A DNA stretch of 34,098 nt. Source: Pseudoxanthomonas sp. (GTDB lineage: Bacteria > Pseudomonadota > Gammaproteobacteria > Xanthomonadales > Xanthomonadaceae). The stretch is taken from contig JAGHZW010000180.1 in assembly GCA_017745195.1 (NCBI GenBank), positions 12,569 through 46,666 on the forward strand, in the 5' to 3' direction. The first letter of the stretch is position 1; the number at the start of each line of letters is the position of its first letter. The position numbers were made by a program, and so were the translations under genes. The notes beneath the pieces were generated by a model. It was not told where the DNA came from. It saw only the letters and a program-made list of their open reading frames with translations, and did not search any database. Below, piece by piece: positions 15,465 to 31,640 of the stretch.

Positions 15465-16961
15465 ATGGCCAACGCACCGTTCGGACAATTTCCCGGCGAT
15501 TTCGAATCGCTCGCCCGGCAGTACTGGAATACCTGGAACGAGCTGCTCGGTCGCGGCAGTTCGTTCGACGCCTGGGGCCTGGCCGGCGGCATGCCGCCCG
15601 GGCTGGGCGGGATGGACCCGGGCACCTACGACTGGTACCAGCGCATGCAGCGGCTGGCCGCCGACTTCAGCGGCGGTGGCCGCGCGCCCGACATCGCCCG
15701 CGCCTGGCGCGAGATGCTGGACGTGCAGGGCACCGACGCGTTCGGTGGACTGCTGCGCTCGATGCACGGCGGACTGGCCGGCGGCGCCTGGCTGGAGCAG
15801 ATCCGGCCGCTGCTGGACATGCTGCTGCGCCCGCTGCGCGAGCAGAGCGCCGAATGGCTGCAGCGTCCGGCCTTCGGTCCGGCGCGCGAACACCAGGAGC
15901 GCCTGCAGGCGCTGGCCCTGGCCTGGCAGGAATGGGAGCAGCGCAACGAAGCCTTCAACGCGGTGCTGGCCCAGGCCGTCGAAAGTGCACATGCGCGCTT
16001 CGAGAAGTTGCTCGGCCAGCACGATGCACCCGGCAAGCGCCTGGAATCGGCGCGCGCGCTGTTCGACCTGTGGATCGACGCGGCCGAGGAGGCCTGGGCC
16101 GAAATCGCGCTGTCGGACGAGTACCGGCACGTCTATGCGGAGATGACCAACGCGCTGATGCGGCTGCGGCTGGGCCTGCAGCGCGAGGTGGAGCAGTTCG
16201 GCACGCTGCTGGGCCTGCCCGGGCGCAGCGAGCTGGATGCCCTGCACCGCAAGGTCGCCGACCTGGAGCGCTCGCTGCACGCCGCACGACGCGGCAAGCC
16301 GGTCCAGGCCGCGCGTACGGCGCCGCCGCCGCGTGCGCGGCGTGCCGCGGCGGCCGTGGAGCCGGTCGCCGATCCGGTCGTCGAAAAAGCGGCCGCCGCC
16401 GTGGCGCCATCGAAGAGCACGCGCAAGCCTGCACGCAGCCCCGCCCGGAAGAAGGCCGTGGCGAAGCGTCCGTCCCTGCGCAAGCCGATGCCGGCGAACA
16501 CGAAGAAGGCTGATCGGAAGGCTGATCGGGCCACGTCGCGTCCGGCGGCGGTGCGTTCGGTCGCGGCCACCACGGCGGTCAAGGCCGTCGAGGCGAAGCG
16601 CGCTTCGGCCGGTGCGAAACAGGCCCAGGCCACCACGGCCGATGCGACGCCTCGGGTGAGCATGGCCACGCCGGAGAAGAAGGCCGCGAAGGCCGCGGCC
16701 CGCGTGGCGGCTGCGAAGCCTGCGGCCGCAGGCGTGCAGTCCACGACAGCGACCGCTTCCCGCAAGCCTGCGGCAGTGGCGCCGGTCGAGCGCAAAGCCG
16801 GTGTCCGCAACGGCACGCGGGCGGCCAGGACGGCGTCGACGCGTGCGCCGGCGACGGCCAAGGTCGTGTCGATGAAGGACTGGGTCAGCCGCAACCTGGG
16901 CGAGAAGGAGCCGGCCGGCAAGGGCAAGTCCGGTGGCCGCCGTGGAGGACGTGACCGATGA
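15465..16961 (+). CDS. phaE: Class III PHA synthase subunit PhaE with a long histone-H1-like tail
   Basis: PhaE is the non-catalytic partner of PhaC in class III polyhydroxyalkanoate synthase and works at the granule surface. The start at 15465 follows a GGAGG at 15456-15460 and gives MANAPFGQFPGDFESLARQY. The product is 498 residues, longer than usual for the family. Residues 1 to about 280 look like ordinary PhaE: helical, with ALAWQEWEQRNEAFNAV, then ARALFDLWIDAAEEAWAE, and a coiled coil (LDALHRKVADLERSLHAAR) where the family normally ends. From about 280 to 498 the protein is almost entirely Lys, Arg, Ala, Pro, Ser and Thr (KPARSPARKKAVAKRPSL, for instance), like histone H1 or the phasin PhaF. 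It ends with a short ordered-looking segment, MKDWVSRNLGEKEP. The stop overlaps the phaC start by 4 bp. Confidence 0.92.
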   Translation: MANAPFGQFPGDFESLARQYWNTWNELLGRGSSFDAWGLAGGMPPGLGGMDPGTYDWYQRMQRLAADFSGGGRAPDIARAWREMLDVQGTDAFGGLLRSMHGGLAGGAWLEQIRPLLDMLLRPLREQSAEWLQRPAFGPAREHQERLQALALAWQEWEQRNEAFNAVLAQAVESAHARFEKLLGQHDAPGKRLESARALFDLWIDAAEEAWAEIALSDEYRHVYAEMTNALMRLRLGLQREVEQFGTLLGLPGRSELDALHRKVADLERSLHAARRGKPVQAARTAPPPRARRAAAAVEPVADPVVEKAAAAVAPSKSTRKPARSPARKKAVAKRPSLRKPMPANTKKADRKADRATSRPAAVRSVAATTAVKAVEAKRASAGAKQAQATTADATPRVSMATPEKKAAKAAARVAAAKPAAAGVQSTTATASRKPAAVAPVERKAGVRNGTRAARTASTRAPATAKVVSMKDWVSRNLGEKEPAGKGKSGGRRGGRDR

Positions 16962-18052
16962 GCCAGGCACACGGCGGATCGACCGGCCCGCTGCATTTCA
17001 ATCCGCTGGACTTGGCCCAGGAAGCCTGGGAATTCCAGAAGCGCCTGGCCGACGGCATGCGCGTGCTCGGCGAGGTGCCGGAGGTCGACTACGGCGCCAC
17101 CGCGCGCGAGGAAGTCTGGCGCGATGGCAAGACCGTGCTGTACCGCTTTGTCGGCGACGCACCGGCCACGGCCAAGGGCCCGCCGCTGCTGATCGTCTAC
17201 GCGCTGGTCAACCGCCCGTACATGGTCGACCTGCAGCACGACCGCTCGCTGGTGAAGGGCCTGCTGGCGCTGGGCCTGGACGTGTACGTGATCGACTGGG
17301 GCTACCCGGACCGCTCCGACCGCTACCTGACCCTGGACGACTACATCAACCGCTACATCGACGGCGCGGTGGACCACCTGGTCGAGGCCAGCGGCGGGCC
17401 GGTGAACCTGCTCGGCGTGTGCCAGGGTGGTTCGTTCTCGCTGTGCTATTCCTCGCTGCATCCGGAGAAGGTGCGCAACCTGGTGACCATGGTCACCCCG
17501 GTCGACTTCCAGACCCCGGACAACATGCTGTCCAGCTGGGTGCGCGAGCTCGACGTGGACCTGTTCGTCGACGCGCTGGGCAATGTCCCGGCCGACCTGA
17601 TGAACGCCAGCTACCTGATGCTCAAGCCGTTCCGGCTGAACCTGCAGAAGTACGTCGGCCTGGTCGACACGCTCGACAACCCGAAGGCGGTCGAGGACTT
17701 CCTGCGCATGGAGAAGTGGATCTTCGACTCGCCCGACCAGGCCGGTGAAGCCTTCCGTGACTTCATCAAGCAGTTCTACCAGGGCAACGCCTTCGTCAAC
17801 GGCACCGCCACCATCGGTGGGCAGAAGGTCGACCTCGGCTTCGTCGACATGCCGGTGCTGAACATCTACGCCGAGCAGGACCACCTGGTGCCGCCCGATG
17901 CCTCGCGCGCGCTGGCCGGCCTGGTCGGCAGCGACGACTACACCGAGCTGGGCTTCAAGGGCGGGCACATCGGCATCTACGTGTCCAGCCGCGCCCAGCG
18001 CGAAGTGCCGGCCGCGATCCACCGCTGGCTGGCGGCGCGCCGCGGCACCTGA
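16958..18052 (+). CDS. phaC: Class III poly(R)-hydroxyalkanoate synthase catalytic subunit PhaC
   Basis: This alpha/beta-hydrolase-fold polymerase joins (R)-3-hydroxyacyl-CoA units into PHA. The product is 364 residues, the normal length for class III. The ATG overlaps the phaE stop (ATGA), which implies translational coupling. The lipase-like box is GVCQGG with nucleophile Cys155. The other triad members are Asp308 in YAEQDHLVPP and His337 in GGHIGIYVSSR, at spacings close to those of class III enzymes. Substrate is probably 3-hydroxybutyryl-CoA or another short-chain monomer, as is usual for class III. No phaA or phaB is in the window, so monomer supply comes from elsewhere. The next gene begins 2 bp after the stop. 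Confidence 0.95.
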   Translation: MSQAHGGSTGPLHFNPLDLAQEAWEFQKRLADGMRVLGEVPEVDYGATAREEVWRDGKTVLYRFVGDAPATAKGPPLLIVYALVNRPYMVDLQHDRSLVKGLLALGLDVYVIDWGYPDRSDRYLTLDDYINRYIDGAVDHLVEASGGPVNLLGVCQGGSFSLCYSSLHPEKVRNLVTMVTPVDFQTPDNMLSSWVRELDVDLFVDALGNVPADLMNASYLMLKPFRLNLQKYVGLVDTLDNPKAVEDFLRMEKWIFDSPDQAGEAFRDFIKQFYQGNAFVNGTATIGGQKVDLGFVDMPVLNIYAEQDHLVPPDASRALAGLVGSDDYTELGFKGGHIGIYVSSRAQREVPAAIHRWLAARRGT

Positions 18053-18054
18053 GC

Positions 18055-18474
18055 ATGGCGCGGGGCGGGCCGGCGCTGGCAGGGCCACGCGCAGGGCGAT
18101 GGCCACGCTGCCTGGCCTGGCTGCTGGTCGGCGCGTTCACCATGACAACGCATGCGCAGGTGCCGGCCACCGTCGCCGACGCCGAGATCCGCGCGCTGAT
18201 CGCGCAGCTCGGCCAGTCGTCGTGCCGCTTCCAGCGCAACGGCCGCTGGTACGACGCCGTCGCCGCGCAGGCGCACCTGCAGCGCAAGTACGACTGGGCG
18301 CAGCGGCGCGGCATGGAAGGCGACGCGGAGGCGTTCATCGAGCGCGCCGCCAGCCGCAGCAGCTTCAGCGGCCGCGCCTACCGGGTCGCCTGTCCCGGCC
18401 AGGCGGAAGTGGACGCCGGTGACTGGTTCCGCAAGCGGCTTGCAGCGCTGCGCGCGGCCGCGCCGGCGCGCTAG
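18055..18474 (+). CDS. DUF5329/YfeK-like exported protein
   Basis: This protein of 139 residues has an N-terminal basic stretch and hydrophobic signal (about residues 18-35, ending TTHAQ), so the mature part is probably periplasmic. The mature part matches the layout of the DUF5329 (YfeK) group: EIRALIAQLGQSSCRFQRNG, then RWYDAVAAQAHLQRKYDW, then a region with SFSGRAYRVACPG. Two cysteines, in SSCRFQ and VACPG, could form a disulphide. The start is 2 bp after the phaC stop, so it may ride on the phaE-phaC transcript. No function is known for the family and none is proposed. Confidence 0.7.
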   Translation: MARGGPALAGPRAGRWPRCLAWLLVGAFTMTTHAQVPATVADAEIRALIAQLGQSSCRFQRNGRWYDAVAAQAHLQRKYDWAQRRGMEGDAEAFIERAASRSSFSGRAYRVACPGQAEVDAGDWFRKRLAALRAAAPAR

Positions 18475-18505
18475 ACTGCCCGCAACAGCCCGACGGAGCC
18501 AGCGC

Positions 18506-18715
18506 ATGAACGCCAGCAATGTGAGTCCCGGACTGTCCCGCTCGCTGAACGACCGCATGATCGCCGGCGTGATGGGCGGCATCGCCCATCGCTACGGCTG
18601 GAGCTCCACCTGGCTGCGGATCATCTACGTGGTGGTTTCGCTGGCCTCGGCCGCGTTCCCCGGCATCCTCGTCTACCTGGTGCTGTGGCTGCTGATCCCG
18701 AACGAAGCCGATTGA
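18506..18715 (+). CDS. PspC-domain small membrane protein
   Basis: This is a 69-residue protein from the ATG at 18506, with GACGGAG upstream. It is essentially one PspC domain: SLNDRMIAGVMGGIAHRYG followed by WLRIIYVVVSLASAAFPGI and a second hydrophobic half LVYLVLWLLIPNEAD. Two membrane segments are likely. In other bacteria PspC is part of the phage-shock envelope-stress response, but stand-alone PspC-domain proteins of this size are common and their role is often unknown. No pspA or pspB is nearby. Confidence 0.85.
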   Translation: MNASNVSPGLSRSLNDRMIAGVMGGIAHRYGWSSTWLRIIYVVVSLASAAFPGILVYLVLWLLIPNEAD

Positions 18716-18728
18716 AGAACCGGGCATC

Positions 18729-19223
18729 GTGAACGGCGGCAACCCGCGCACGTCCCGCGCGCTCGGTTGGGTGCGCTGCCTGGGCCTGGTGCTCGGCGCG
18801 GCATGGGCATCGCCATGGACCCTGGTCGGCATGCTCGCCGGCGTGGCCGGCATGCCTGCCGGCGCCGCGCCGCGCTTCAGTCGCCGCGAATGCGCGATCG
18901 TGTTCCATCGGTGGCCGTGGGGCCCGGGAGGGGCGATGACCCTGGGCAATGTCATCCTCGCCACCGGCGACGACCTCGACCTGCGCTGCGCCACCTACGA
19001 ACACCGTGCCGGCCGCTGTTCGCATCCGGCGGTGCGGCTGGGCGACCACGAGCGCGCGCACGTGTACCAGTACATGCTGCTCGGGCCGCTGTTCGTGCCG
19101 GTGTATTTCCTCTGCGGCGGTATTTCGGTGCGCAATCCATTCGAACGCGCCGCCGACCGCTACGCGATGCATGGCCATGGCTGGTGGCCTTCGCGGTCAC
19201 GGCATCGGCCTTCATCGCACTGA
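18729..19223 (+). CDS. Uncharacterised exported or membrane protein with an HExxH motif
   Basis: This 164-residue protein begins at a GTG (18729), 13 bp after the PspC gene. A hydrophobic N-terminal region (about residues 13-47) could be a signal or anchor. The middle contains GAMTLGNVILATGDDL, and then DHERAHVYQYMLLGPLFVPV, in which His107-Glu108-x-x-His111 is a zinc-binding HExxH motif. NPFERAADRYA follows with Glu139 placed where a third metal ligand would be expected. This layout resembles DUF4157-like or other predicted zinc-peptidase fragments. The C-terminal dozen residues (after GHGWW) are basic and poorly structured. I do not recognise a named family, and peptidase activity is only suggested by the motif. 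Confidence 0.65.
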   Translation: MNGGNPRTSRALGWVRCLGLVLGAAWASPWTLVGMLAGVAGMPAGAAPRFSRRECAIVFHRWPWGPGGAMTLGNVILATGDDLDLRCATYEHRAGRCSHPAVRLGDHERAHVYQYMLLGPLFVPVYFLCGGISVRNPFERAADRYAMHGHGWWPSRSRHRPSSH

Positions 19224-19385
19224 ATCGCGCGTGATCCAGTGCACGATCCGTGCATGAATCGCAATGTGTGCGTCAGCGCACCGAAACATCCGCCCTCTAA
19301 CTTCTGTTGTACGGAATCCTAACGTCCCGCTGCGCAGACTGCGTACGTCGACCGGACGCAACACAGAAGAAGAGGTAACGGCCGA

Positions 19386-19622
19386 ATGAGCATCGTCCTT
19401 TACGTGGGTGGCAGCAAGGATGGCACCCGCGGTTTCGTCCCGCACGGATTCACCAAGTCGATGCGGGAAACCGTGGAATACGGACGCGAGATCTACGTCG
19501 AGCACATGGTCCGCCTGGCCCGCTACGGCACCGTGCGGATCATGGCCCTGGAAAGCCTGTGCGAAGACATCATCGCCGGCCTGGTGGCGCGGCACTACGA
19601 CGCCGCCGCTGCCGCGGCCTGA
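19386..19622 (+). CDS. Unrecognised 78-residue protein
   Basis: The ATG at 19386 follows an AAGAGGT Shine-Dalgarno region at about 19369-19375. The codon use is normal for the window, so the gene looks real. The product starts MSIVLYVGGSKDGTRGFVP and continues with an amphipathic, helical part (REIYVEHMVRLARYGTVRIM, ESLCEDIIAGLVARHYD) and ends in a run of alanines. It has no signal or membrane segment and is probably cytoplasmic. I do not recognise the family. It has 162 bp of its own upstream region, which contains a small GCACG-ATC-CGTGC hairpin, and no obvious operon partners. Confidence 0.65.
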   Translation: MSIVLYVGGSKDGTRGFVPHGFTKSMRETVEYGREIYVEHMVRLARYGTVRIMALESLCEDIIAGLVARHYDAAAAAA

Positions 19623-19686
19623 GGCACACCGCGGCAGCCACGTACTGCGGGGTGATCGCGGCGCCGATGCGTTCGCCGCGATCCGC

Positions 19687-19974
19687 TCAGGCGCTGCCGA
19701 GCCGGGTCACGTCGATGACCCGGTCCAGCCAGAGGTAGTGCGGCGCCGCATCACCTTCGAGCGGCTCCAGGCGCAGAAGCGCGTTGTAACCCTGGTCACC
19801 GTCATCCGGACGGAACAGCTGCAGGGACGGCCGCGTTGCAACCACGCCGGCCAGGACGCGGCCATCGTCCAGGGTGATGCGGACCTGTTCCTCGTCGTCC
19901 AGCGCGTGGATCAGGGCATTGAGCCGTGCGACGCCTTCGTCACCGGCCAGCAGGCGTTCGGGCAGCTCGTTCAT
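19687..19974 (-). CDS. DUF3247-family protein
   Basis: The product is 95 residues from the ATG at 19974. The longer frame to 20130 adds residues that do not look like protein. It reads MNELPERLLAGDEGVARLNA, then VRITLDDGRVLAGVVATRPS and ends DRVIDVTRLGSA. This matches the small DUF3247 family of xanthomonads. The central part (VRITLDDGRVLAGVV) is like the Sm-fold or other small beta-barrel proteins in character, but no function is known. It is divergent from the DUF3141 gene across 343 bp. Confidence 0.75.
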   Translation of the reverse strand: MNELPERLLAGDEGVARLNALIHALDDEEQVRITLDDGRVLAGVVATRPSLQLFRPDDGDQGYNALLRLEPLEGDAAPHYLWLDRVIDVTRLGSA

Positions 19975-20025
19975 GTCGCTACTCCGCGCTCGGATTCCGG
20001 ACAAGAATGCGTCGCCGGCCGCGAG

Positions 20026-20042
20026 CGGTCCGTGACGGACCG
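20026..20042. promoter_or_regulatory. Perfect palindrome in the DUF3247/DUF3141 divergent region
   Basis: CGGTCCGT-G-ACGGACCG is a perfect 8-1-8 inverted repeat 51 bp upstream of the DUF3247 start. The whole gene-free stretch 19975-20317 (343 bp) otherwise shows an AT-richer patch near 20160-20178 (TTCTTTTACACT) that could be a promoter for the DUF3141 gene, but no convincing -35/-10 pair. The palindrome could be an operator or an mRNA hairpin. Confidence 0.35.
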
Positions 20043-20317
20043 GCAAGCTTCGGTGTCGATGATCCGCGTCGGTGCCGCGGGGCGAAGAGACCTCATTCTC
20101 CGTGTCCGCTTGCTGGGCCGCGGAATTCATCAGCCGGGACCGCCCAGGCCCAATCGGCGTGTCACAGTTCTTTTACACTCTGGCTGCGGCCGCCTGCGGC
20201 TGCAGGACGGCGCCACGGAATCGTTGGGATGGCACCTGCAACCGGAGGGCTTCCGGATCTTCCGTAGGCGGTCGCATGCAAGATTTCCCCATCTGCAACC
20301 TGCGAAGGGGTACCGGT

Positions 20318-22627
20318 ATGGATATCGAATCGCTTGCGCGCAGCCAGGATGTCGCCGGCAAGGTCGCCCGCTTGTTCGAGAAGCGCGTGGCGAACGCCGA
20401 CAGGCAGTTGCAGGAGCGGCTGCAGCGCGCGTGGAAGGCGCACACGGAAGAGGCCATGGCCAATCCGCTGGCGCCCTGGCAGGTATGGTCGGAATGGTCG
20501 GCCTATGCGGTCGACTTCGGCCAGCGCTCGGTGCTGTTCTGGGACACGCTCCGCCAGCGTGGCAACAACTATCTCGAGCATGTGCAGCGCGGCCAGCCGC
20601 CGGTGCTGCACTTCGACCACGAGACCGTGCTCGACGGCCGCCACTTCGAAAAGCCGGTCAACTACGCGCTGGTACGCATCATCCCGCCGGCCGGCGTCAC
20701 CGTCGATGCGACGCGGCGTCCGTACCTGATCATCGATCCGCGCGCCGGGCACGGGCCGGGCATCGGTGGCTTCAAGGATGACTCGCAGGTCGGTGTCGCG
20801 CTGCGGGCCGGGCATCCGGTGTACTTCCTGGTGTTTTTCCGCGAGCCGGAACCCGGCCAGACCCTGCTGGACGTATGCGCGGCCGAACAGCGCTTCGTGC
20901 GCAAGGTGCGCGAACTGCATCCGGACAGCCCGAAGCCGGCGATCGTCGGCAACTGCCAGGGCGGCTGGGCGGCGATGATGCTCGCGGCCTCCGATCCCGA
21001 CGACACCGGCCCGCTGGTGATCAACGGCGCGCCGATGTCCTACTGGGGTGGTGCCTGGCAGGACGGCGAGGGCGACAACCCGATGCGCTATTCGGGCGGA
21101 TTGCTGGGCGGCAGCTGGCTGGCATCGCTCACCGCCGACCTCGGCAACGGGATCTTCGACGGCGCCTGGCTGGTGCAGAACTTCGAGAACCTCAACCCGG
21201 CAAACACGTTCTGGGACAAGTACTACCACGTGTTCGCCAACGCCGACACCGAACCGCCGCGCTTCCTCGAGTTCGAGCGCTGGTGGGGCGGTTTCTACCT
21301 GATGAACCGCGAGGAGATCGAGTGGATCACGCGGAACCTGTTCATCGGCAACAAGCTGTGGTCGGGCGAGACGCGCGGCGCGAATGGCCGGTCCTTCGAC
21401 CTGCGCGACATCAAGGTGCCGATCATCCTGTTCGCCTCGATGGGCGACAACATCACCCCGCCGCAGCAGGCCTTCAACTGGGTCGCCGACATCTACGGCA
21501 GCACCGAGGAGATCAAGGCGCGCGGCCAGGTCATCGTCGGCCTGCTGCACCAGGACATCGGCCATCTCGGCATCTTCGTCTCCGGCCGCGTGGCGAAGAA
21601 GGAGCATGCGCAGATCGTGTCGGTGCTCGGGTCGGTGGAGCTGCTGCCGCCCGGCCTCTACGCCATGGAGATCGTCGAGACCACCGGCGGGGACGGCAAG
21701 CCTGCCTACGAAGTGATGTTCCATGAGCGTCGGCTCGAGGACCTGGTGCATCGCTTCAACCGCTTCGAGCGCGCCGACGAGCGGCCGTTCGAGACCGTGG
21801 CGCAGGTGTCCGAATTCAACCAGCGCGCCTACGAACTGTTCGCACGGCCGCTGGTGCAGTCGCTCGCCAGCGAGCACACCGCGCATCTGGCCCGCGAGTT
21901 CCATCCGTTGCGCGCGCAGCGGTGGATCTTCTCGGACCGGAATCCGTGGCTGGGCTGGCTCGGCTACGCCGCGGAGGTGGTCAAGCAGCAACGCAGGGTC
22001 GTGCCGCCCGATGCGCCGATGCGCCGGAGCGAGGCGCTCTACGCGGAAATGGTCAGTGCCTCGCTCGACTATTACCGGGGCATACGCGACGCAAGCAGCG
22101 AAGCGGCGTTCTTCGCGATCTATGGCGGGCTGTTCCCGGCCTATCTCGGCGCGGCCCCGGACGATGCCGGACCCGACGCGCTGGATGACGCCCGCGGCCT
22201 TCCCTTCGTCCAGGAGGCGATCGCCGCGGTAGCCGAAGGCGGATACGCGGAGGCCTTCGTGCGCGCCTGCGCGCTGCTCGCGCCGCACGGCGACCTGTCG
22301 ATTTCGCGGCTGGTGCTGCGCCAGGACATCGCGCGCGACTACGCGGACCTGCTGCCGGCGCTGTCGGTCGAGGAGTGGCGCCGGATCCGCGGCGAACAGG
22401 AAATCATCGTCCGCTACGCGCGCGAGCAGGCGATCGGGACCCTGCCCGGGTTGCTGGCGGACGCCGAGGACCGCGAACGCTTCCTGCTGCTGCTCCGGCG
22501 CCTGCTTGCCGACGAGCGCGTCCGCCAGCTGGGGCACTCGGCCGAACAGGCCGCCACCCTGGAGCGGATCCGCGGGGCGCTCCGCCGCAAGCCCGCGCGG
22601 CGGGCTGCCGCACGCAGGAAGGCCTGA
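20318..22627 (+). CDS. DUF3141 protein with a PHA-synthase-like Cys-Asp-His triad
   Basis: The product is 769 residues from the ATG at 20318, chosen for the GAAGGGG Shine-Dalgarno about 8 nt upstream. An ATG at 20276 would add 14 residues. The N-terminal part (1-110) is helical and phasin-like (ANADRQLQERLQRAWKAH, then AVDFGQRSVLFWDTLRQRG). The central alpha/beta-hydrolase domain has YLIIDPRAGHGPGIGGFKDD and a box GNCQGGWA with Cys213. A plausible acid is Asp377 (SMGDNITPP), and a plausible base is His416 (DIGHLGIFVSG, very like GGHIGIYVS of PhaC). The C-terminal 300 residues are helical and end in a basic KPARRAAARRKA tail. It is followed by a pta/ackA remnant and a fabI homologue, the usual partners of this family. 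Its reaction is unknown. Polymer-related acyl transfer is an inference. Confidence 0.85.
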   Translation: MDIESLARSQDVAGKVARLFEKRVANADRQLQERLQRAWKAHTEEAMANPLAPWQVWSEWSAYAVDFGQRSVLFWDTLRQRGNNYLEHVQRGQPPVLHFDHETVLDGRHFEKPVNYALVRIIPPAGVTVDATRRPYLIIDPRAGHGPGIGGFKDDSQVGVALRAGHPVYFLVFFREPEPGQTLLDVCAAEQRFVRKVRELHPDSPKPAIVGNCQGGWAAMMLAASDPDDTGPLVINGAPMSYWGGAWQDGEGDNPMRYSGGLLGGSWLASLTADLGNGIFDGAWLVQNFENLNPANTFWDKYYHVFANADTEPPRFLEFERWWGGFYLMNREEIEWITRNLFIGNKLWSGETRGANGRSFDLRDIKVPIILFASMGDNITPPQQAFNWVADIYGSTEEIKARGQVIVGLLHQDIGHLGIFVSGRVAKKEHAQIVSVLGSVELLPPGLYAMEIVETTGGDGKPAYEVMFHERRLEDLVHRFNRFERADERPFETVAQVSEFNQRAYELFARPLVQSLASEHTAHLAREFHPLRAQRWIFSDRNPWLGWLGYAAEVVKQQRRVVPPDAPMRRSEALYAEMVSASLDYYRGIRDASSEAAFFAIYGGLFPAYLGAAPDDAGPDALDDARGLPFVQEAIAAVAEGGYAEAFVRACALLAPHGDLSISRLVLRQDIARDYADLLPALSVEEWRRIRGEQEIIVRYAREQAIGTLPGLLADAEDRERFLLLLRRLLADERVRQLGHSAEQAATLERIRGALRRKPARRAAARRKA

Positions 22628-22657
22628 CACTTCGTTGGATGCGAACAGGAGTAGGGG

Positions 22658-22969
22658 ATGGACGGACACCACGAGAAGTACCAGCGCCTGATCGATTTCT
22701 GCCGCACGCTGCCGCCGACGCCGACCGCCATCTCGCACCCCTGCGACGCCGGTTCCCTGCGCGGCGTCGCCGAGGCGGCCGGGCCCGGGCTCATCCAGCC
22801 GATCCTGGTCGGGCCGCGCGCACTGGACGCGCATGCGAACGGGCAGGGCCGGCCGAGGATCAGCACGGCGGCCAGCCGGGTCTCCACCTGGGTCATTCCC
22901 ACCGACGAAGAACTGATGATCGCCCAGCACACGCGGCGGCTTGTCGCCGCGCCGGCCACGACGGAGTAG
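22658..22969 (+). pseudogene. In-frame chimera of phosphate acetyltransferase N terminus and acetate kinase C terminus
   Basis: This 103-codon ORF has its own Shine-Dalgarno (CAGGAG) and stop codon. Residues 1 to about 54 match the start of the phosphate acetyltransferase (enoyl-CoA hydratase/phosphate acetyltransferase type) that follows DUF3141 genes: HEKYQRLIDFCRTLPPTPTA, then HPCDAGSLRG and LIQPILVGPRA. Residues from about 55 match the end of acetate/propionate kinase: LDAHANG, then RISTAASRVSTWVIPTDEEL and MIAQHTRRLV. The usual operon order is DUF3141, pta, ackA, fabI. An internal deletion from early pta to late ackA, joined in frame near 22820, explains the ORF. Neither half keeps an active site, so a remnant is likelier than a working protein. 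The reading frame is nevertheless intact and fabI starts 3 bp after it, so translation may persist for coupling. Confidence 0.78.
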
Positions 22970-22972
22970 AGC

Positions 22973-23755
22973 ATGGCAACGGACGGTTCAGGCCGGGTAC
23001 TCGATGGCGCCAAGGCGCTCGTCGTCGGCATCGCCAACGACAGCTCGATCGCCTACGGCTGCGCGAAGGCGTTCGCGGAAACGGGCGCCGACCTGGCGAT
23101 TACCTACCTCAACGACAAGACCCGCGGTTTCACCGAACCGCTGGCCCGCGAACTCGGCGCGCAGATCTACCTGCCGCTGGACGTGGCCCGCCCGGGCGAA
23201 CTGGAGGCGGTGTTCGAGGTGGTCGAGCGGCAGTGGGGCAAGCTCGACATCCTCGTGCACTCGATCGCCTGGGCGCCGAAGGAAGACCTGCAGGGCGGCC
23301 TGCTCGAGTCCTCGGCAGCGGGGTTCGCGCAGGCGATGGACGTGTCCTGCCATTCCTTCGTGCGCATGGCGCGGCTGGCCGCGCCGCTGATGAAGGACGG
23401 CGGCACGATGTTCGCGATGAGCTACCACGGCGCCAACAAGGTCGTGCCCAGCTACAACCTGATGGGGCCGGTGAAGGCCGCGCTGGAAGCCTGCTGCCGC
23501 TACCTCGCCTACGAACTGGGGCCGCAGGGCATCCGCGTGCACGCGATCTCGCCCGGCCCGCTGAAGACGCGCGCCGCCTCCGGACTGAAGGACTTCGACC
23601 TGCTGCTCAACGCCGCCGCACAGCGGGCACCGCTCGGTGAACTGGTCGACATCCTGGACGTCGGCTTCACCTGCGCCTACCTGGCCACGCCGTATGCGCG
23701 CCGGTTGTCCGGAGAAACCCTGTACGTCGACGGCGGCTTGAACATCATGGCCTGA
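22973..23755 (+). CDS. fabI: FabI-type enoyl-[acyl-carrier-protein] reductase
   Basis: This is an SDR-fold enoyl reductase of 260 residues. The cofactor loop reads VVGIANDSSIAYGCAKAF, and the catalytic residues are Tyr151, Tyr161 and Lys168 (Y-x9-Y-x6-K, the FabI spacing) within AMSYHGANKVVPSYNLMGPV and its following lysine. The C-terminal SGETLYVDGGLNIM is typical. The gene lies 3 bp after the pta/ackA remnant and 3' of the DUF3141 gene. In such operons the FabI homologue is usually a second copy, not the housekeeping enzyme. Its in vivo substrate may therefore be an acyl chain specific to this operon. The housekeeping fabI was not seen in this window. Confidence 0.88.
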   Translation: MATDGSGRVLDGAKALVVGIANDSSIAYGCAKAFAETGADLAITYLNDKTRGFTEPLARELGAQIYLPLDVARPGELEAVFEVVERQWGKLDILVHSIAWAPKEDLQGGLLESSAAGFAQAMDVSCHSFVRMARLAAPLMKDGGTMFAMSYHGANKVVPSYNLMGPVKAALEACCRYLAYELGPQGIRVHAISPGPLKTRAASGLKDFDLLLNAAAQRAPLGELVDILDVGFTCAYLATPYARRLSGETLYVDGGLNIMA

Positions 23756-23768
23756 CCGCGCGGGCCAC

Positions 23769-23804
23769 AAAAAAGAAGGGCCAGGCTGGGAGGCCTGGCC
23801 CTTC
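23769..23804 (-). terminator. Rho-independent terminator of tRNA-Leu
   Basis: A perfect 12-bp stem (23775-23786 with 23793-23804) encloses a 6-nt loop. On the minus strand it is followed by six T residues (A69-A74 on the plus strand), so it is a classical intrinsic terminator for the tRNA gene, which ends 12 bp upstream. It also lies 19 bp after the fabI stop and may block that convergent transcript, though it lacks a T-run in that direction. Confidence 0.9.
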
Positions 23805-23815
23805 TATCAAGCATG

Positions 23816-23901
23816 TGGTGCCGAAGGTGGGACTCGAACCCACACGGTTTTAAGGCCGGCGGATTTTGAGTCCGCTGCGTCTACCATTCCGCCACTTCGG
23901 C
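23816..23901 (-). tRNA. tRNA-Leu (anticodon CAA)
   Basis: On the minus strand the acceptor stem is GCCGAAG (5', from 23901) paired with CTTCGGC. The anticodon stem-loop is GCGGA-CTCAAAA-TCCGC, giving anticodon CAA, which reads UUG. A long variable arm (GCCGGCCTTAAAACCGTG region) marks it as a class II tRNA. The T arm reads GTGGGTTCGAGTCCCAC. The CCA end is encoded (23816-23818). The gene stands alone with a strong terminator behind it. Confidence 0.97.
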
Positions 23902-23938
23902 GCGGGCCGGCAGTATAGCGGCCGCGGCAGGCGGGCGG

Positions 23939-24532
23939 CTATCGGCAGGCGTCGGTGCCCAGCAGGCGCTCCTCGCGGCGCAGCCAGCCTTCGGCGCCGG
24001 GGGGCTCGGTCGTTTCGGGCACGAATACGTGGCAGCGCAGCAGCTGGCGCTGGTAGACGTGCAGGGAGACGGCGATGTCGTCGCTGCTCGGGTTGCGGAT
24101 GGCGTGGTACTCGTGCGGCGGGATCAGGCTGCCGGCGCTGCCGGGGCCGGCCTCGATGTCGCCCATCCGGGTGAAGCGCCAGCGCGCGTGCTCGCCGTCG
24201 CGCTCGCAGGGTTCGTACTGGGTGATCGCCAGGCGCCCGTGCCAGACGCCCTCGACGCACCAGGCGCCGTCGTGGTCGTGGATGTGGGTGCCCTGGCCGG
24301 GTCCCCAGGTCATCGCGACCACGCTGTAGCCCAGCTCCGGGCTGACGTGCAGTTCGCGGCGCGCGTAGTGGTCTCCGATCGGCTGCAGCACCGCGCGCGG
24401 CAGGCCGACCTCGCGGTCGGCGAACAGGGTCACCAGCGCCTGCCGCAACGCGGCGGTGACGGCGGCTTCGTCATCCAGCTGGACCGCCGCATCGAGCGCG
24501 GCGACCAGTCGTTCCTTGCCGGGGAAATGCAC
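23939..24532 (-). CDS. Cysteine dioxygenase-type thiol dioxygenase (cupin)
   Basis: This cytoplasmic non-haem iron enzyme of the CDO_I family oxidises cysteine, or a related thiol such as 3-mercaptopropionate, to the sulfinic acid. The product is 197 residues from the ATG at 24532. The iron-binding motif reads GTHIHDHDGAWCVEGVWHG, with His83 and His85, and a third ligand is expected at His143 (PHEYHAIRN). The cysteine at 92 lies where CDO enzymes often carry the Cys-Tyr crosslink partner, but the tyrosine was not traced. It is 76 bp downstream of the metX gene on the same strand, so it may be co-transcribed with the synthesis of sulfur amino acids. Whether cysteine or another thiol is the substrate is not decided by the sequence. 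Confidence 0.8.
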   Translation of the reverse strand: MHFPGKERLVAALDAAVQLDDEAAVTAALRQALVTLFADREVGLPRAVLQPIGDHYARRELHVSPELGYSVVAMTWGPGQGTHIHDHDGAWCVEGVWHGRLAITQYEPCERDGEHARWRFTRMGDIEAGPGSAGSLIPPHEYHAIRNPSSDDIAVSLHVYQRQLLRCHVFVPETTEPPGAEGWLRREERLLGTDACR

Positions 24533-24608
24533 GGTCGAGGGGTTCCGCTTGGGCCGGCGTGCAGCCTAGTGCACGGCCTGTTAGCAGAATGTTTCCCGTG
24601 TAACCGTG

Positions 24609-25742
24609 TCAGAGCGCGTCGAGGAAGTCGCGCACGGCCGGCCCGAAGTGCTCCAGGTCGACCAGGAAGGCGTCATGGCCCTGTGGCGAATCCATGCCGA
24701 TGAAGCCGGCGCGGGCACCGCCGCGGGCCAGGCCCTCGGCCACTTCCTGCTGCTGCTGCACCGGGAACAGGATGTCGGTGTTGGCGCCGATGGCCAGCGC
24801 GCGCTCGACCCTGATCCGCGCCAGCCCAGCCATCACGTCGCCGCCGCCGGCTTCGGCCAGGTCGAACCAGTCCATCGAGCGGCTCAGGTACAGGTAGCAG
24901 TTCGGGTCGTAGCGGCGGACGAAGCGGCGGGCGTGGCCTTCCAGGTAGCTTTCGACCTGGAATTCCAGCCCGAACGGGTCGTCGGCCGCCGGCACCATCT
25001 GCTCGTCGAGGCGGACGCGGCCGAAGCGGCCGTCCCATTCCAGCGCCGAGCGGTAGGTGATCACGCCGAGCTTGCGCGCGATGCGCATGCCCGACTCGGG
25101 ATAGCTGTCGTCGTCGTACTCGCCGCCGTTCCAGTTCGGATCGAGCCGGATCGCCTCGCGCTGCAGCGAGCGCACGGCGATGGAGAACGGCAGGGCGCGC
25201 GCGCTGCCGGAGATGTTGATGTGCGAGCGGGCGATGCCGGGGTGGCGGGCCAGCAGCGCCAGCGCGGTCATCCCGCCCATCGAGTTGCCGATCACGCAGG
25301 CCAGCTGGCCGATGCCGAGCCCACGCACGACCTCGGCCGCGGCGTCGGCGATGTCTTCGATCGACAGCTCCGGGAACGCCAGCCGGTACGGCGCGCCGGT
25401 GGCCGGATCGATCGAGGCCGGGCCGGTGGAACCCTTGCAGCTGCCCAGCGAATTGACGCAGACCACGAACCAGCGGTCGGTATCGATCGCCTTGCCCGGG
25501 CCGAGCATGCCTTCCCACCAGCCTGGCGCCGGATCTTCGGCGTTGGAGGCGGCGTGCGCGTCGGGCGAAAGGCCGGTGACGATCAGCACCGCGTTGCCGA
25601 GCTGCGCGTCGGGCGTGCCCCAGGTTTCGTAGGCGATGCGCGCACCGTGCAGCGCGCCGCCGCGCTTCATCGGGAACGGCGACGACAGCGCGTGGAAGCG
25701 GCTGCCGGGCGGGATGAATTCGTGGGTCGGGGCCGGGGACAT
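24609..25742 (-). CDS. metX: MetX-family O-acyltransferase (homoserine/serine O-acyltransferase)
   Basis: This alpha/beta-hydrolase acyltransferase has 377 residues, the family length, from the ATG at 25742. Nucleophile Ser154 is in VIGNSMGGMTA, and family motifs include ETWGTPDAQLGNAVLIVTGL and the loop NSLGSCKGSTGPAS. Late GHDAFLVDLEHF supplies the histidine. MetX homologues acetylate homoserine for methionine synthesis, but in xanthomonads relatives of this family have been reported to act as serine O-succinyltransferases in cysteine synthesis. The loop reads NSLGSCKGS rather than the NVLGGCQGS I associate with acetyltransferases, which is suggestive. The neighbouring cysteine dioxygenase gene fits cysteine metabolism. 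The specific acyl donor and acceptor are not proven. Confidence 0.87.
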   Translation of the reverse strand: MSPAPTHEFIPPGSRFHALSSPFPMKRGGALHGARIAYETWGTPDAQLGNAVLIVTGLSPDAHAASNAEDPAPGWWEGMLGPGKAIDTDRWFVVCVNSLGSCKGSTGPASIDPATGAPYRLAFPELSIEDIADAAAEVVRGLGIGQLACVIGNSMGGMTALALLARHPGIARSHINISGSARALPFSIAVRSLQREAIRLDPNWNGGEYDDDSYPESGMRIARKLGVITYRSALEWDGRFGRVRLDEQMVPAADDPFGLEFQVESYLEGHARRFVRRYDPNCYLYLSRSMDWFDLAEAGGGDVMAGLARIRVERALAIGANTDILFPVQQQQEVAEGLARGGARAGFIGMDSPQGHDAFLVDLEHFGPAVRDFLDAL

Positions 25743-25830
25743 AGGGGCCGGAGTTTACCGGCATCGGCCGCCGCTGTTGGCGGGCGTACCGCGGGAAACT
25801 GATTCCCGCCGATGGCGGCCTGCATTCCAC

Positions 25831-25850
25831 GGAGCGGCGGAGGCCGCTCC
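25831..25850 (-). terminator. GC hairpin after the ccm operon
   Basis: GGAGCGGC (25831-25838) and GCCGCTCC (25843-25850) form a perfect 8-bp stem with a GGAG loop, 26 bp beyond the ccmI stop on the minus strand. No T-run follows. The flanking CCAC and ATGG add outer partial pairing. It may instead be one of the dispersed GC hairpins common in xanthomonads. Confidence 0.4.
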
Positions 25851-25876
25851 ATGGTGCGTCGATGGCAGACGCCGGC

Positions 25877-26923
25877 TTATGGCGCGGGTGCGCCGATCAC
25901 CAGTTCGACCGGCTGCGATGCGGGCAGGGTGACCCGCACCGGCGCCGATTCCAGGTCGCCTTCGCCGCGGGTCGCCGTGCCGCTGGCGGACAGGCGCGCG
26001 AACACTTCGACCTCGCGCAGCGCGGACAGCTTCTGGGTCGGCATCGGGCTGTCGGCGTCGTCCAGCACCACCTCCAGCGGCAGGTCCTGCAGGGCGTGGC
26101 GCTCGACCGCGACCGGCATCGGCGGACCGCCGGGCACGCGCGCGATCACGAACACGGTCGCGTCGCCGCGCAGGCGCACGCGCGAGGCGAAGTCCGGATC
26201 CAGCGAGACCTTCACCGCCAGCGTGGTGGCATTCGTCGCCGCGGCAGCGGTGTCGGCGGCCTCGCCCGTTGCAGCGGCCAGCGGCGCCAGGCCGGCTTCG
26301 GCGCGGGCTTCGTTGATCTGCTCGCGCAGGCTGCGCGCGGTGGCCGCATCGACCATGCCCAGCAGCGGCTCCCAGGTCTTCGCCGCTTCGGCGTTCTGCC
26401 CGGCCTGGCGCTGCGACACGCCGAGGAACCAGGTCGCCCGGGCGTTGGCCGGTTCCACTTCGATCGCATGCCGCAGCCAGGCCACGGCCTGGTCATCGAA
26501 ACGCCTTTGCGGATCGGCCAGGGCGCGCGCTTCGGCGGCGTCGACCAGCAGCGCCGCTTCGTCCGGACTCAGCTTCACCGCCTGCGCATACGAATCGCGC
26601 GCGGCGGCATGGTCGCCCAGCGTGGCCTGCGAGCGGGCGAGCAGCGCCCAGCCTTCGGGCTGGGCCGGGTTGCGTCCGAGCTCGGCCTTCAGCTGCACGA
26701 TCGCCTCGTCCAGGCTCTGCGGTGCGGCGGCGGCCGTTTCCTGCAGGCCGGCCGGAGTGCCGATCAAGCGGTACAGGGCGAGCACGCCCACGCCCAGCAG
26801 GAGCACGGACAGGGCCCATGGCCACGGGTGGCGGTTGCGCAACGGCCATAGCACCCACGCCAGCACGCCCAGGGTGATGGCGGTGGCGAGCGCGGCGAAC
26901 AGCGCGGTGGCCGGGATCACCAT
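25877..26923 (-). CDS. ccmI: Cytochrome c maturation protein CcmI (TPR)
   Basis: CcmI delivers apocytochrome c to the haem-ligation complex. The product is 348 residues from the ATG at 26923. Two membrane segments near the N terminus (IPATALFAALATAITLGVLA, then PWALSVLLLGVGVLALYRLI) are followed by a TPR region (EAIVQLKAELGRNPAQPEGW, then LLARSQATLGDHAAARDSYA) at about residues 65-190, and a C-terminal beta-rich domain (VKVSLDPDFASRVRLRGDAT). The start overlaps the ccmH stop by 7 bp, so it is the last gene of the operon. Its layout is that of the longer CcmI type, with the C-terminal domain that binds apocytochrome. Confidence 0.9.
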   Translation of the reverse strand: MVIPATALFAALATAITLGVLAWVLWPLRNRHPWPWALSVLLLGVGVLALYRLIGTPAGLQETAAAAPQSLDEAIVQLKAELGRNPAQPEGWALLARSQATLGDHAAARDSYAQAVKLSPDEAALLVDAAEARALADPQRRFDDQAVAWLRHAIEVEPANARATWFLGVSQRQAGQNAEAAKTWEPLLGMVDAATARSLREQINEARAEAGLAPLAAATGEAADTAAAATNATTLAVKVSLDPDFASRVRLRGDATVFVIARVPGGPPMPVAVERHALQDLPLEVVLDDADSPMPTQKLSALREVEVFARLSASGTATRGEGDLESAPVRVTLPASQPVELVIGAPAP

Positions 26924-27399
26924 TCCTGTTCTCCCTGGTCGTCCGTATCGTCCTTGCCGGCGTTCGCGCCGTCGCGCGCCGGCACCGTGGCTCGGCGGCG
27001 CACGATGTGCCACACCAGCGCGGCACCGCCGAGCAGGACCAGGCCCGGGCCGAACCACAGCAGCCAGGTGCGCGAACCCATCTTCGGCCGGTACAGCACG
27101 AACTCGCCGTAGCGGTCGACCAGGAACTGCTTGATCTCCGCATCCGACTTGCCCTGGCGCATCAGTTCAAGGACCTCGCGGCGCATGTCCTGGGCGATCT
27201 GCGCGTTGGAATCGGCCAGCGACTGGTTCTGGCACATCACGCAGCGAAGCTCGCCGGTCAGCGCATGGAAGCGCGCTTCCTCGGTGGTGCTGGTGAACTG
27301 CGGCGGCGTCGGGTCGCCGACCGGTTCGGCGTGCGCGGAGACGGCCGCCAGCATGGCCAGCAGCGATCCCAGCAGCAGTCCGTGCAGGCGCTGGGTCAC
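26917..27399 (-). CDS. ccmH: Cytochrome c maturation protein CcmH
   Basis: CcmH is a membrane-anchored thiol oxidoreductase that presents reduced apocytochrome c to the ligase CcmF. The product is 160 residues, with a signal or anchor (about 5-24). The active site is LRCVMCQNQ with Cys53 and Cys56, followed by SLADSNAQIAQDMRREVLEL, as in the family. A second membrane segment (WLLWFGPGLVLLGGAALVW) and a charged cytoplasmic tail end the protein. It overlaps the ccmG stop by 4 bp (ATGA). Confidence 0.93.
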   Translation of the reverse strand: MTQRLHGLLLGSLLAMLAAVSAHAEPVGDPTPPQFTSTTEEARFHALTGELRCVMCQNQSLADSNAQIAQDMRREVLELMRQGKSDAEIKQFLVDRYGEFVLYRPKMGSRTWLLWFGPGLVLLGGAALVWHIVRRRATVPARDGANAGKDDTDDQGEQEW

Positions 27400-27989
27400 T
27401 GCGCGCGCTCCACCTGCTCAAGCACCGGCAGCAGTTGAGTCTCCACCACCTCGTCGGTGAGCGGGCCGGTGTACTTCCAGCGGACGATGCCGCTGCCGTC
27501 GACCAGGAAGGTCTCAGGTGCGCCGGCCACGCCCCAGTCCAGCGCGTAGCGGCCTTCCCTGTCGGCGAGCACGACGAAGAACGGATTGCCGAACTGCTCC
27601 AGCCAGCGCAGCGCGTCGGCGGGCTCGTCCTTCCAGTTGTAGCCGATCACGCGCACGCGGCGGGTCTCGGCGAATTTGGTCAGCACCGGGTGCTCCTCGC
27701 GGCACGCCGCGCACCAGCTGCCCCAGACATTGAGCAGGTACGGCGCGCCGCGCAGCTTGGCCGCGGTCACCGTGATCGACGGGTCGTGCAGCACCGGCAG
27801 GGTGAAATCGGGGGCCGGCTTGCCGATCAGCGCCGAAGGCAGCACGTCGCGGTCGGCATCTCCCGAGCGGACCACCCCGTACAGCATCAGCCCGAGCAGG
27901 CCGATGAAGAACAGCGCGCCGATCACCACGGCGACCACGGGCAGGCCCTGCTTCGGGGGAATGGGGGCGCCAGTCTCGGGTGTGCTCAT
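27396..27989 (-). CDS. ccmG: Thiol:disulfide interchange protein CcmG/DsbE
   Basis: CcmG is a periplasmic membrane-anchored thioredoxin-like protein that reduces apocytochrome c. The ATG at 27989 is chosen because GAGAG lies 7-8 nt upstream, overlapping the ccmF stop; a GTG two codons earlier (27995) is possible. The product is 197 residues. A single N-terminal membrane segment (VVAVVIGALFFIGLLGLML) is followed by the thioredoxin-like domain with LIGKPAPDFTLPVL, the active site WGSWCAACREEHP (Cys93, Cys96), and GVAGAPETFLVDGSG carrying the cis-proline loop. Confidence 0.93.
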   Translation of the reverse strand: MSTPETGAPIPPKQGLPVVAVVIGALFFIGLLGLMLYGVVRSGDADRDVLPSALIGKPAPDFTLPVLHDPSITVTAAKLRGAPYLLNVWGSWCAACREEHPVLTKFAETRRVRVIGYNWKDEPADALRWLEQFGNPFFVVLADREGRYALDWGVAGAPETFLVDGSGIVRWKYTGPLTDEVVETQLLPVLEQVERAQ

Positions 27990-27999
27990 GTGCACGCTC

Positions 28000-29922
28000 T
28001 CATGTGGATTTGTCCTCGGGCAGACGACGGAAACGGCGGTCGGTGGCGGTGACCAGGCCGCCGAGCGCCATCAGCGCCGCACCGGCCCAGATCCAGCGGA
28101 CGAAGGGCTTGATGTGCACGCGCACCGCCCAGGCGCCATCGCCCAGCGATTCGCCCAGGGCGACGTAGACGTCGCCGGTCACGCCGGGGCGGATCGCCGC
28201 CTCGGTCATCACCTGGCCGCCGCTGGCGTAGGCGCGTTTTTCCGGATGCAGCAGCACCAGTTCGCGGCCGTCACGCAGCACCTGCACGTGGCCGCGGTCG
28301 GACAGGTAGTTCGGGCCCTGCTGCTGGTCCACGCCCTTGAACACGAAGGTATGGCGGCCGACCTGCAGCGACTGGCCCGGCTTGAGCGCGACCTCGCGCT
28401 GCACGTTCTGCGCTTCCACCAGCAACGCGCCGGCGAGGAACACGCCGATGCCCAGGTGGGCCAGGGTCATGCCCCACATCTCGGCGGTCATGCGCCCGCT
28501 GTTGCGCAGCCGGCTCCAGACGAAGCGCAGCGTGCCCAACGCGATCCAGGCTGCGCCGGCCACGCCGAAGGCCGTCTTCCACGGACCCTGCGGCGCGGTG
28601 AAGTACGCGGCCACGCCGATGCCGGCGGCCACGCCCAGCCACGGCAGCAGCATGGCCACCACGCGCGAGGGCTGGTCGCGCTGCCAGCGGGTCAGCGGGC
28701 CGAACGGCACCAGCGCCACCAGCGGCGCCATCAGCACGAAGAACAGCAGGCCGAAGTAGGGCGGGCCGACCGAGATCTTGCCCAGGCCCAGCGCGTCGGC
28801 CAGCAGCGGGTACAGCGTGCCAAGCAGGATCATCGCGCAGGCGCTGGCCAGCAGCAGGTTGTTGAGCAGCAACAGGGTCTCGCGCGAGGCCGGCTGGAAA
28901 CCGGCACCCGGCGCCAGGCGGCCGGCGCGCAGCGCGTACAGCAGCAGCGAGCCGCCGATGATGAGGCTGAGGAAGACCAGGATGAACAGGCCGCGCGCCG
29001 GATCGGCGGCGAACGCGTGCACGCTGGTCAGCACGCCGGAGCGGACCAGGAAGGTGCCCATCAGCGACAGCGAGAAGGTGGCGATGGCCAGCAGCAGGGT
29101 CCAGCCGGCGAAGCTGCCGCGCTTCTCGGTCACCGCCTGCGAGTGGATCAGTGCCGCGCCGGCCAGCCACGGCATGAACGCCGAGTTCTCCACCGGATCC
29201 CAGAACCACCAGCCGCCCCAGCCCAATTCCGAATAGGCCCACCAGCTGCCCAAGGCGATGCCGACGGTCAGGAACGCCCAGGCGACATTGGTCCACGGCC
29301 GCGTCCAGCGCAGCCAGCGCGCGTCGATGCGGCCGTCGAGCAGGGCGGCGATGGCGAAAGCGAACGGCACCGAGAAGCCGGCCCAGCCGACGTACTGCAT
29401 CGGCGGGTGGATGACCATGCCCGGGTCCTGCAGCAGCGGGTTGAGGTCGCGCCCCTCGGCGGCGGCCGGCAGCAGGCGGATGAACGGATTGGAGGTGAAG
29501 ATCAGGAAGGCGAGGAAGCCGATCGCCACGATCCCCATCACCCCCAGCACGCGCGCCACCACCGGCGTCGGCAGTTGCCGCGAGCACAGCGCCACGGCGG
29601 CGTTCCAGCAGGCCAGCACCAGCGTCCACAGCAGCAGCGAGCCTTCGTGCGAGCCCCACACCGCGGTGTAGCGGTAGACCAGCGGCAGCAGCGAGTTGGA
29701 ATTGATCGCCACGTAGCGGACCGAGAAGTCCTGGCTGACGAAGGCCCAGGTCAGGATCGCGAAGGCGCCGCCGACCAGCAGCAGCTGGGCATACGCGGCC
29801 GGTCGTGCCACCGCCATCCACGCCGCGTTGCCGCGCTGCGCGCCGGCCAATGGCAGCGTGCCCTGCAGCAGTGCGACCAGCAGTGCGAGGGCAAGCAGGA
29901 CCTGGCCGAGTTCAGGAAGCAT
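28000..29922 (-). CDS. ccmF: Cytochrome c haem lyase subunit CcmF
   Basis: CcmF is the large polytopic membrane protein that attaches haem to apocytochrome c. The ATG at 29922 follows a GGAGGC Shine-Dalgarno; the in-frame ATG at 29940 is upstream of that and less likely. The product is 640 residues with about 14 membrane segments. The haem-handling tryptophan-rich motif reads WGGWWFWDPVENSAFMPWL. Other family stretches include SVRYVAINSNSLLPLVYR, then WGSHEGSLLLW, then NPLLQDPGMVIHPPMQYVG, all typical. It lies 10 bp or less from ccmG downstream and 117 bp from ccmE upstream. Confidence 0.95.
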   Translation of the reverse strand: MLPELGQVLLALALLVALLQGTLPLAGAQRGNAAWMAVARPAAYAQLLLVGGAFAILTWAFVSQDFSVRYVAINSNSLLPLVYRYTAVWGSHEGSLLLWTLVLACWNAAVALCSRQLPTPVVARVLGVMGIVAIGFLAFLIFTSNPFIRLLPAAAEGRDLNPLLQDPGMVIHPPMQYVGWAGFSVPFAFAIAALLDGRIDARWLRWTRPWTNVAWAFLTVGIALGSWWAYSELGWGGWWFWDPVENSAFMPWLAGAALIHSQAVTEKRGSFAGWTLLLAIATFSLSLMGTFLVRSGVLTSVHAFAADPARGLFILVFLSLIIGGSLLLYALRAGRLAPGAGFQPASRETLLLLNNLLLASACAMILLGTLYPLLADALGLGKISVGPPYFGLLFFVLMAPLVALVPFGPLTRWQRDQPSRVVAMLLPWLGVAAGIGVAAYFTAPQGPWKTAFGVAGAAWIALGTLRFVWSRLRNSGRMTAEMWGMTLAHLGIGVFLAGALLVEAQNVQREVALKPGQSLQVGRHTFVFKGVDQQQGPNYLSDRGHVQVLRDGRELVLLHPEKRAYASGGQVMTEAAIRPGVTGDVYVALGESLGDGAWAVRVHIKPFVRWIWAGAALMALGGLVTATDRRFRRLPEDKST

Positions 29923-30039
29923 CGCTGCCTCCAGGTGCATGACGGGCGGCCGCGCTGCGTGCAGCGGTACGACAGGACACGTGCGCGTCCTTGCCGACCC
30001 CGTATCCGTGCCGGCGGCCGCCGGCGTCGGCGCGCGCCA

Positions 30040-30501: not shown

Positions 30502-30671
30502 CGACTCAACTCCGCGGCCCGGTCGGAACCGGCCGGCTTGCGTTCGCGCCGCGCACGCAGGCGCACGGCACGCAGTTCGCGCCGCACCTGCAGGCGCGGC
30601 GCCAGGAAATCCCACAGGAACGCGGCCACGAACACCGCGTAGGCCCCGATCACGTACGGCAGGTAGCTCAC
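30498..30671 (-). CDS. ccmD: Haem exporter protein CcmD
   Basis: This 57-residue single-pass membrane protein stabilises the CcmABC haem-release complex. It begins with a GTG at 30671, overlapping the ccmC stop by 4 bp (GTGA), and its stop overlaps the ccmE start in the same way. The sequence [20 protein letters not shown] gives the hydrophobic segment, followed by the usual basic cytoplasmic tail. It is easily missed because it is short and lacks an ATG. Confidence 0.88.
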
Positions 30672-31417: not shown

Positions 31418-31640
31418 GGGGAAGGTCGCATCGCTCGCTGGGTGGCGCCGGCCCCCGGTGGGGCGAGCGGGCCGGACTGGCTCGGATTCCTGCATTTTTC
31501 CAGACTCGGCCCGCTGGGGCCAGCCAAGGGCCTGGTCAAAATGTCCAACCCGTTCAGCGCCGCACCGGTGCGCCGTTGCCGGCCCGGGCGACGATGATCG
31601 CGTGGCGTGGCGGGCGCTGCCTTGATCGCGCGCAACCTGT

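Follow-up and report, generated by a model that had tools for sequence, protein, structure and literature searches.

A remnant of pta and ackA fused in frame between DUF3141 and fabI in Pseudoxanthomonas, very probably the scar of a deletion

Introduction

Phosphate acetyltransferase (Pta) and acetate kinase (AckA) turn acyl-CoA into acyl phosphate and ATP. In the window, by which we mean the whole stretch of DNA analysed here (34,098 nucleotides of contig JAGHZW010000180.1 from a Pseudoxanthomonas sp., assembly GCA_017745195.1), an open reading frame (ORF) of 103 codons between a DUF3141 gene and fabI resembles pta at its start and ackA at its end. Deletion-born gene fusions and pseudogene remnants occur in operons, and the locus raises the question of whether this ORF is such a remnant, a translated bridge to fabI, an artefact of assembly or a new small protein.

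Results

The ORF listing and translation placed the fused ORF at 22658-22969 on the plus strand, as the preliminary description of this DNA had it, 30 nt after the stop of the upstream gene of the operon, which encodes an alpha/beta-hydrolase-like DUF3141 protein (20318-22627, plus strand; PF11339, E = 7.4e-253; 80% identity to that of Pseudoxanthomonas koreensis). Profile searches matched residues 3-55 to positions 5-57 of 315 of a phosphate acetyltransferase model (NF008852/PRK11890, E = 3.5e-16) and residues 55-98 to positions 349-392 of 396 of an acetate/propionate kinase model (NF005462/PRK07058, E = 9.8e-7). Residues 1-55 of the P. koreensis pta product align with 22658-22822 (76% identity) and residues 351-398 of its ackA product with 22823-22966 (71% identity), and the chimera first read by eye, a pta start followed by an ackA end, is thus borne out for each half by both the relative and the models. 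Since the halves come, in order, from two different adjoining genes of one operon, the match stands far above chance. By profile and by alignment to the relatives, 22658-22822 (plus strand) holds the first 55 codons of a short, PRK11890-type pta, and 22823-22969 (plus strand) the last 48 codons of ackA with the stop TAG (22967-22969).

Neither enzyme is represented by more than an end piece. A phosphate acetyltransferase (PF01515/PRK11890) has a PTA domain near full length, about 315 residues, at the curated score; the fused ORF reached 59 bits against a cut-off of 413 with the PRK11890 model, over positions 5-57 of 315, and PF01515 was not among its Pfam matches. An acetate kinase (PF00871) has a kinase domain across about 390 residues at the curated score, against which the ORF reached 15.6 bits (cut-off 22), over positions 363-392 of 392. 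The signals around the ORF are in place, as the preliminary description had also noted for the Shine-Dalgarno sequence and the tight spacing to fabI: by sequence reading, an AGGAG (22647-22651, plus strand) lies 6 nt ahead of the ATG, the stop codon ends 3 nt before the fabI ATG at 22973, with the same spacing in the related genome G014, and a Shine-Dalgarno-like GGAG for fabI (22963-22966, plus strand) lies within the final ackA codons. The fabI gene itself (22973-23755, plus strand) is intact and encodes a PRK07533-type enoyl-ACP reductase of 260 residues (NF005717, 436 bits against a cut-off of 337; 88% identity to P. koreensis). Beyond it, in the gap towards a cysteine-dioxygenase-like gene that converges on fabI, the window holds a 13-pair terminator-like hairpin (23774-23805) with its T run on the minus strand; such hairpins are not above chance here, with one site in the scan against a shuffle mean of 2.0.

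Two genomes of the same genus served for comparison, P. koreensis KCTC 12208 (G003; loci L018/L099; NZ_PDWM01000011.1) and G014 (locus L098), and both carry pta and ackA, so that the intact operon, which the preliminary description had proposed to look for in sister genomes, is present there. The order in P. koreensis is DUF3141, pta (315 aa), ackA (399 aa) and fabI (260 aa), consecutively. G014 is colinear with the window across 15857-31918 at 83-87% nucleotide identity, interrupted only at 22821-22826, where the extra stretch of G014 is pta plus ackA, and in a short gap after fabI. One contiguous stretch is therefore gone between colinear flanks, its two ends belonging to different genes that are adjacent and intact in the relatives, and the fused state is derived. 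By alignment coordinates the net deletion is 1847 bp relative to G014 and 1844 bp relative to P. koreensis. In both relatives pta and ackA lie in different frames, with a start-to-start distance of 2 modulo 3, and the fusion is in frame because the loss is also 2 modulo 3; an in-frame fusion of the two genes by chance has a probability of one in three. The junction lies at 22822-22823 (plus strand), give or take one or two codons: the sequence is homologous to pta up to and including VGPRA (22822) and to ackA from LDAHAN onwards (22823), where both relatives read FDAGAN. The switch from pta to ackA had been correctly recognised in the preliminary description but placed at residue 54, one residue earlier than the alignments put it, after residue 55.

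Two further observations were made in these genomes. Window 18467-19613 corresponds to 12643-13755 of L099 and lies upstream of DUF3141 in the window and G014 and downstream of fabI in P. koreensis, which reads as a local rearrangement around the operon. The DUF3141 gene of G014, a one-contig genome of 57% completeness, is split across several frames, apparently through base-level errors of assembly; pta and ackA of this genome each occupy a single frame.

To see how the remnant has changed, the window, P. koreensis and G014 were compared three ways and the substitutions unique to the window counted. Of these, 21 fall at codon positions 1 and 2 of the stub and 16 at its position 3; the corresponding figures for fabI are 13 and 38 (Fisher P = 0.004). 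Over those stub segments, P. koreensis and G014 together have 20 changes at positions 1 and 2 and 35 at position 3, and the difference from the 21:16 of the window is borderline (P = 0.059); the fabI pattern of the window (13:38) does not differ from that of the other branches (43:68, P = 0.11). Of all unique changes, the window accounts for 37/92 in the stub and 51/162 in fabI; the excess in the stub is not significant (P = 0.17). Unique residues in the window, P. koreensis and G014 number 13, 8 and 6 in the stub and 11, 14 and 14 in fabI. The pattern fits a loss of constraint after the deletion, without proving it, the window branch also including changes that preceded the deletion. The frame of the stub is still open, with no insertion or deletion relative to the relatives. 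As a sign of selection the open frame was discarded, 59% of simulated neutral histories with 37 random substitutions remaining stop-free.

The DUF3141 operon was then surveyed more widely. A DUF3141 protein scan gave 187 relatives, and the analysis went on with the best 80. Judged by best hits, DUF3141, pta, ackA and fabI stand in order in 60 of them (one, L050, with a fabI hit of just 26%), three have DUF3141-fabI, two have DUF3141-ackA-fabI (L091 with an ackA piece only), and the remaining 15 are cut by contig ends, rearranged or missing more. The 60 full-order loci among the best 80 of 187 agree with the earlier reading of pta and ackA as usual residents of this position, and because of them we take the intact state to be ancestral. 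In the Paraburkholderia group, DUF3141 exceeded the cut-off in 93 of 144 genomes, and 60 of the listed places were taken, mostly of the subfamily nearest the window's; the four genes stand in order in 41 of the 60 by best hits, or in 38 once L180, L196 and L212, which hold fragments of pta or ackA, are set aside. In the window's order, DUF3141 exceeded the cut-off in 37 of 398 genomes; a set of 20 loci (17 places from the order search, one from the genus and two earlier loci) contains the full operon in four (L268-L271) and DUF3141 plus fabI without the pair in L272, and a full operon with this fabI was not seen in the remaining 15.

Joins comparable to that of the window were recognised by eye in three-frame translations, those common to two genomes being merged, and eight were scored in the Paraburkholderia group: four keep the frame, and two with an intact fabI and two in which fabI is missing or broken do not. 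The in-frame joins are a pta cut to a stub in L192 (864 bp), a pta stub with identical ends in L187 and L209 (861 bp, counted once), an ackA stub of 40 codons in L188 (with L087, Paraburkholderia silvatlantica; 1059 bp), and a DUF3141 end joined to a pta end in L188 and L195 (1004 bp, counted once). Out-of-frame joins ahead of a full-length fabI are that in the ackA of L195 (1000 bp) and the joining of pta to ackA in L180 and L196 (counted once, out of frame as read now); the ackA join of L212 and the joining of pta to the fabI end in L207 are out of frame and have no intact fabI. In L209 fabI is lost and a full-length ackA directly follows the pta stub, and the DUF3141-pta join of L188 and L195 has a broken ackA downstream of it, beyond which fabI is intact. 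Scoring left out loci that lack the pair and show no readable join, among them L047, L086, L094, L215, L216, L218 and L272. By eye, about ten codons kept in L218 resemble a pta start, and a remnant after DUF3141 at about 2130-2210 of L216 resembles the final fabI codons, in a locus with no pta, ackA or fabI hit. Judged from these sequences, the loss of pta and ackA recurs within one operon slot in several other lineages.

A close counterpart of the window's join is that of L180 (G099) and L196 (G111), both of the Paraburkholderia group, in which a pta start is likewise joined to an ackA end between DUF3141 and a full-length fabI. It differs in its limits (pta 1-37, ackA from 311), in being out of frame, in a further loss at the ackA end, and in that these genomes carry other AckA genes, unlike the window's draft genome, in which none was found. 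Its net size varies with the method of alignment, being 1777 bp from blastn pieces and 1775 bp from global alignment; 1777 bp would mean that it was in frame at origin, and as the sequences now stand neither genome has it in frame. P. silvatlantica (L087/L188) shares an in-frame collapse leaving a 40-codon ackA stub before fabI, but its pta is gone except for the last codons, which are joined to DUF3141, and an AckA is encoded elsewhere in the genome.

These joins bear on whether the frame matters. The preliminary description had suggested that the deletion was tolerated because the kept frame preserves translation of fabI, and in a stronger form the in-frame stub would be retained since its translation shields the message and passes ribosomes on to fabI, selection favouring in-frame over out-of-frame scars in this operon. 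The 3-nt spacing from stop to start, which G014 shares, and the position of the fabI GGAG within the retained ackA end speak for such coupling. Among scored joins with an intact downstream operon gene, five of seven are in frame, where chance would give one in three (one-sided binomial P = 0.045), a small, post hoc tally that was scored by eye under a count rule chosen after the data had been seen; all nine scored joins, the window's included, give five of nine. Against selection for the frame stand the loosely constrained codon positions 1 and 2 of the stub and the two joins that are out of frame ahead of a full-length fabI, that of L195 and that shared by L180 and L196, from which it follows that the frame is not required for keeping fabI. 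Tolerance through the kept frame is thus possible for the window and fails as a rule, and we consider selection for an in-frame bridge unlikely. A broader version, in which pta-ackA is a removable cassette of the DUF3141-fabI operon that is repeatedly cut, selection preferring a short translated bridge that couples fabI and the window's fusion being one such bridge, seems to us more doubtful still.

The junction is known from the assembled contig alone, and we weighed whether strains or repeats had been misjoined in a genome that truly has an intact pta-ackA pair. The source genome is a draft of 3.61 Mb in 246 contigs, 87.6% complete and probably a metagenome-assembled genome, which would leave room for such an error; but the junction is interior to a contig of 116,834 bp, gene order and flanks agree with G014, and the genome yielded no other AckA and no short Pta piece in the search. 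A short direct repeat at the junction, as the preliminary description had envisaged, was not found in either relative: within 30 bp of the deletion ends, exact matches reach at most 6 bp in G014 and 5 bp in P. koreensis, less than the random mean of 6.5. With no shared word near the ends, as seen in the relatives, on which an assembler could collapse, a repeat-driven collapse is unlikely, and we hold an assembly artefact to be highly improbable. We likewise rejected a direct repeat as what triggered the deletion; since the repeats were measured in relatives and not in the undeleted ancestor of this locus, the deletion ends may have shared a few bases of microhomology. At the ackA joins of L188 and L195, by contrast, the overlap amounts to 6 to 9 bp, depending on which relative is compared.

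A distant copy replacing the lost step had also been suggested, and the search did not favour it. A profile search of the own genome (87.6% complete, so that an unseen copy is possible) gave no acetate kinase match, and the sole PTA-domain match belongs to a malic enzyme (PF00390, PF03949, PF01515), of which it is the C-terminal part and which we take to be MaeB. An enoyl reductase domain, PF12241, presumably of the FabV type, lies on another contig, and the FabI of the window therefore need not be the sole enoyl reductase. Among 17 genomes of the genus, DUF3141 exceeded the cut-off in five, the own genome included, and an AckA-family match was found in seven, the own genome not among them; nine of the 16 others gave no AckA match, and four of the eight AckA places cover just positions 84-361 of 392. 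Elsewhere, all 21 genomes searched for a backup (nine with the pair or part of it missing or moved and twelve picked because they have scars or lack genes) yielded one or more AckA matches of full size, sometimes the surviving, moved or second-copy gene of the operon. Among the scar genomes searched, only that of the window, at its 87.6% completeness, lacks an AckA match.

No full-length match to the fused ORF came from the 59 other genomes searched or from the 16 other genomes of the genus, and among 113 plasmid records that matched it, coverage never reached 80%; one genome with a full-length match, in the 60-genome set (own included) as in the 17 of the genus, does not describe a conserved stand-alone family of small proteins. 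That the chimera is a new functional small protein is scarcely credible, for all that a start, an SD-like sequence, an open frame without insertions or deletions relative to the relatives and a stop are present, given its one known occurrence, its loosened substitution pattern and its composition from end pieces only (pta model 5-57 of 315, ackA model 349-392 of 396).

Discussion

Very probably the fused ORF was left behind by a deletion of about 1.85 kb and is now a decaying, functionless remnant in an operon that has kept DUF3141 and FabI. The deletion took away the final five-sixths of pta, the short intergenic gap and the opening seven-eighths of ackA, and the remaining ends now form one reading frame. 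It was probably a single event by illegitimate recombination, which fits the absence of exact repeats longer than 6 bp near the ends in the relatives. The product would be a 103-residue chimera with one end piece from each enzyme, and the operon's Pta and AckA would no longer be made. The stub is very probably non-functional, the loss of catalysis being argued from its length, and would be decaying slowly; ribosomes may still translate it up to fabI, as they formerly would have ackA, and, translated or otherwise, it is most likely a remnant.

The deletion scar is in itself an ordinary event, a case of ordinary reductive evolution, and it shares with other deletion-born fusions and pseudogene remnants in operons the joining of neighbours at internal sites, the loss of the sequence between them and the retention of the flanking genes. 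It differs from them in that the pair is cut down in several lineages and in that the stub ends 3 nt before the next gene. We found no account of such a pta-ackA scar in the literature searched, as far as the accessible parts of the papers go. In this reading the pta-ackA pair is expendable to the operon and has been lost repeatedly in other lineages, and it is this recurrence in one operon slot that is worth keeping.

Without Pta and AckA, the operon's own products are no longer able to convert acyl-CoA into acyl phosphate and ATP. In their accessible parts, published sources name DUF3141 as a PHB depolymerase (PMC8050969) or class it with PHA synthases (PMC11878206), and it is also named in PMC8601165; from the first two of these namings, the remaining DUF3141 and FabI proteins may act on hydroxyacyl or enoyl substrates. 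Papers on the low-oxygen response of Burkholderia (PMC3759415, PMC6127331) deal, in the parts accessible, with an acetyltransferase that is not assignable there to the DUF3141 operon type. That DUF3141 and this type of FabI persist without the usual Pta-AckA step argues that the pair is accessory and not the core of the operon's job, and the scars across lineages amount to a natural experiment on which operon parts are required jointly.
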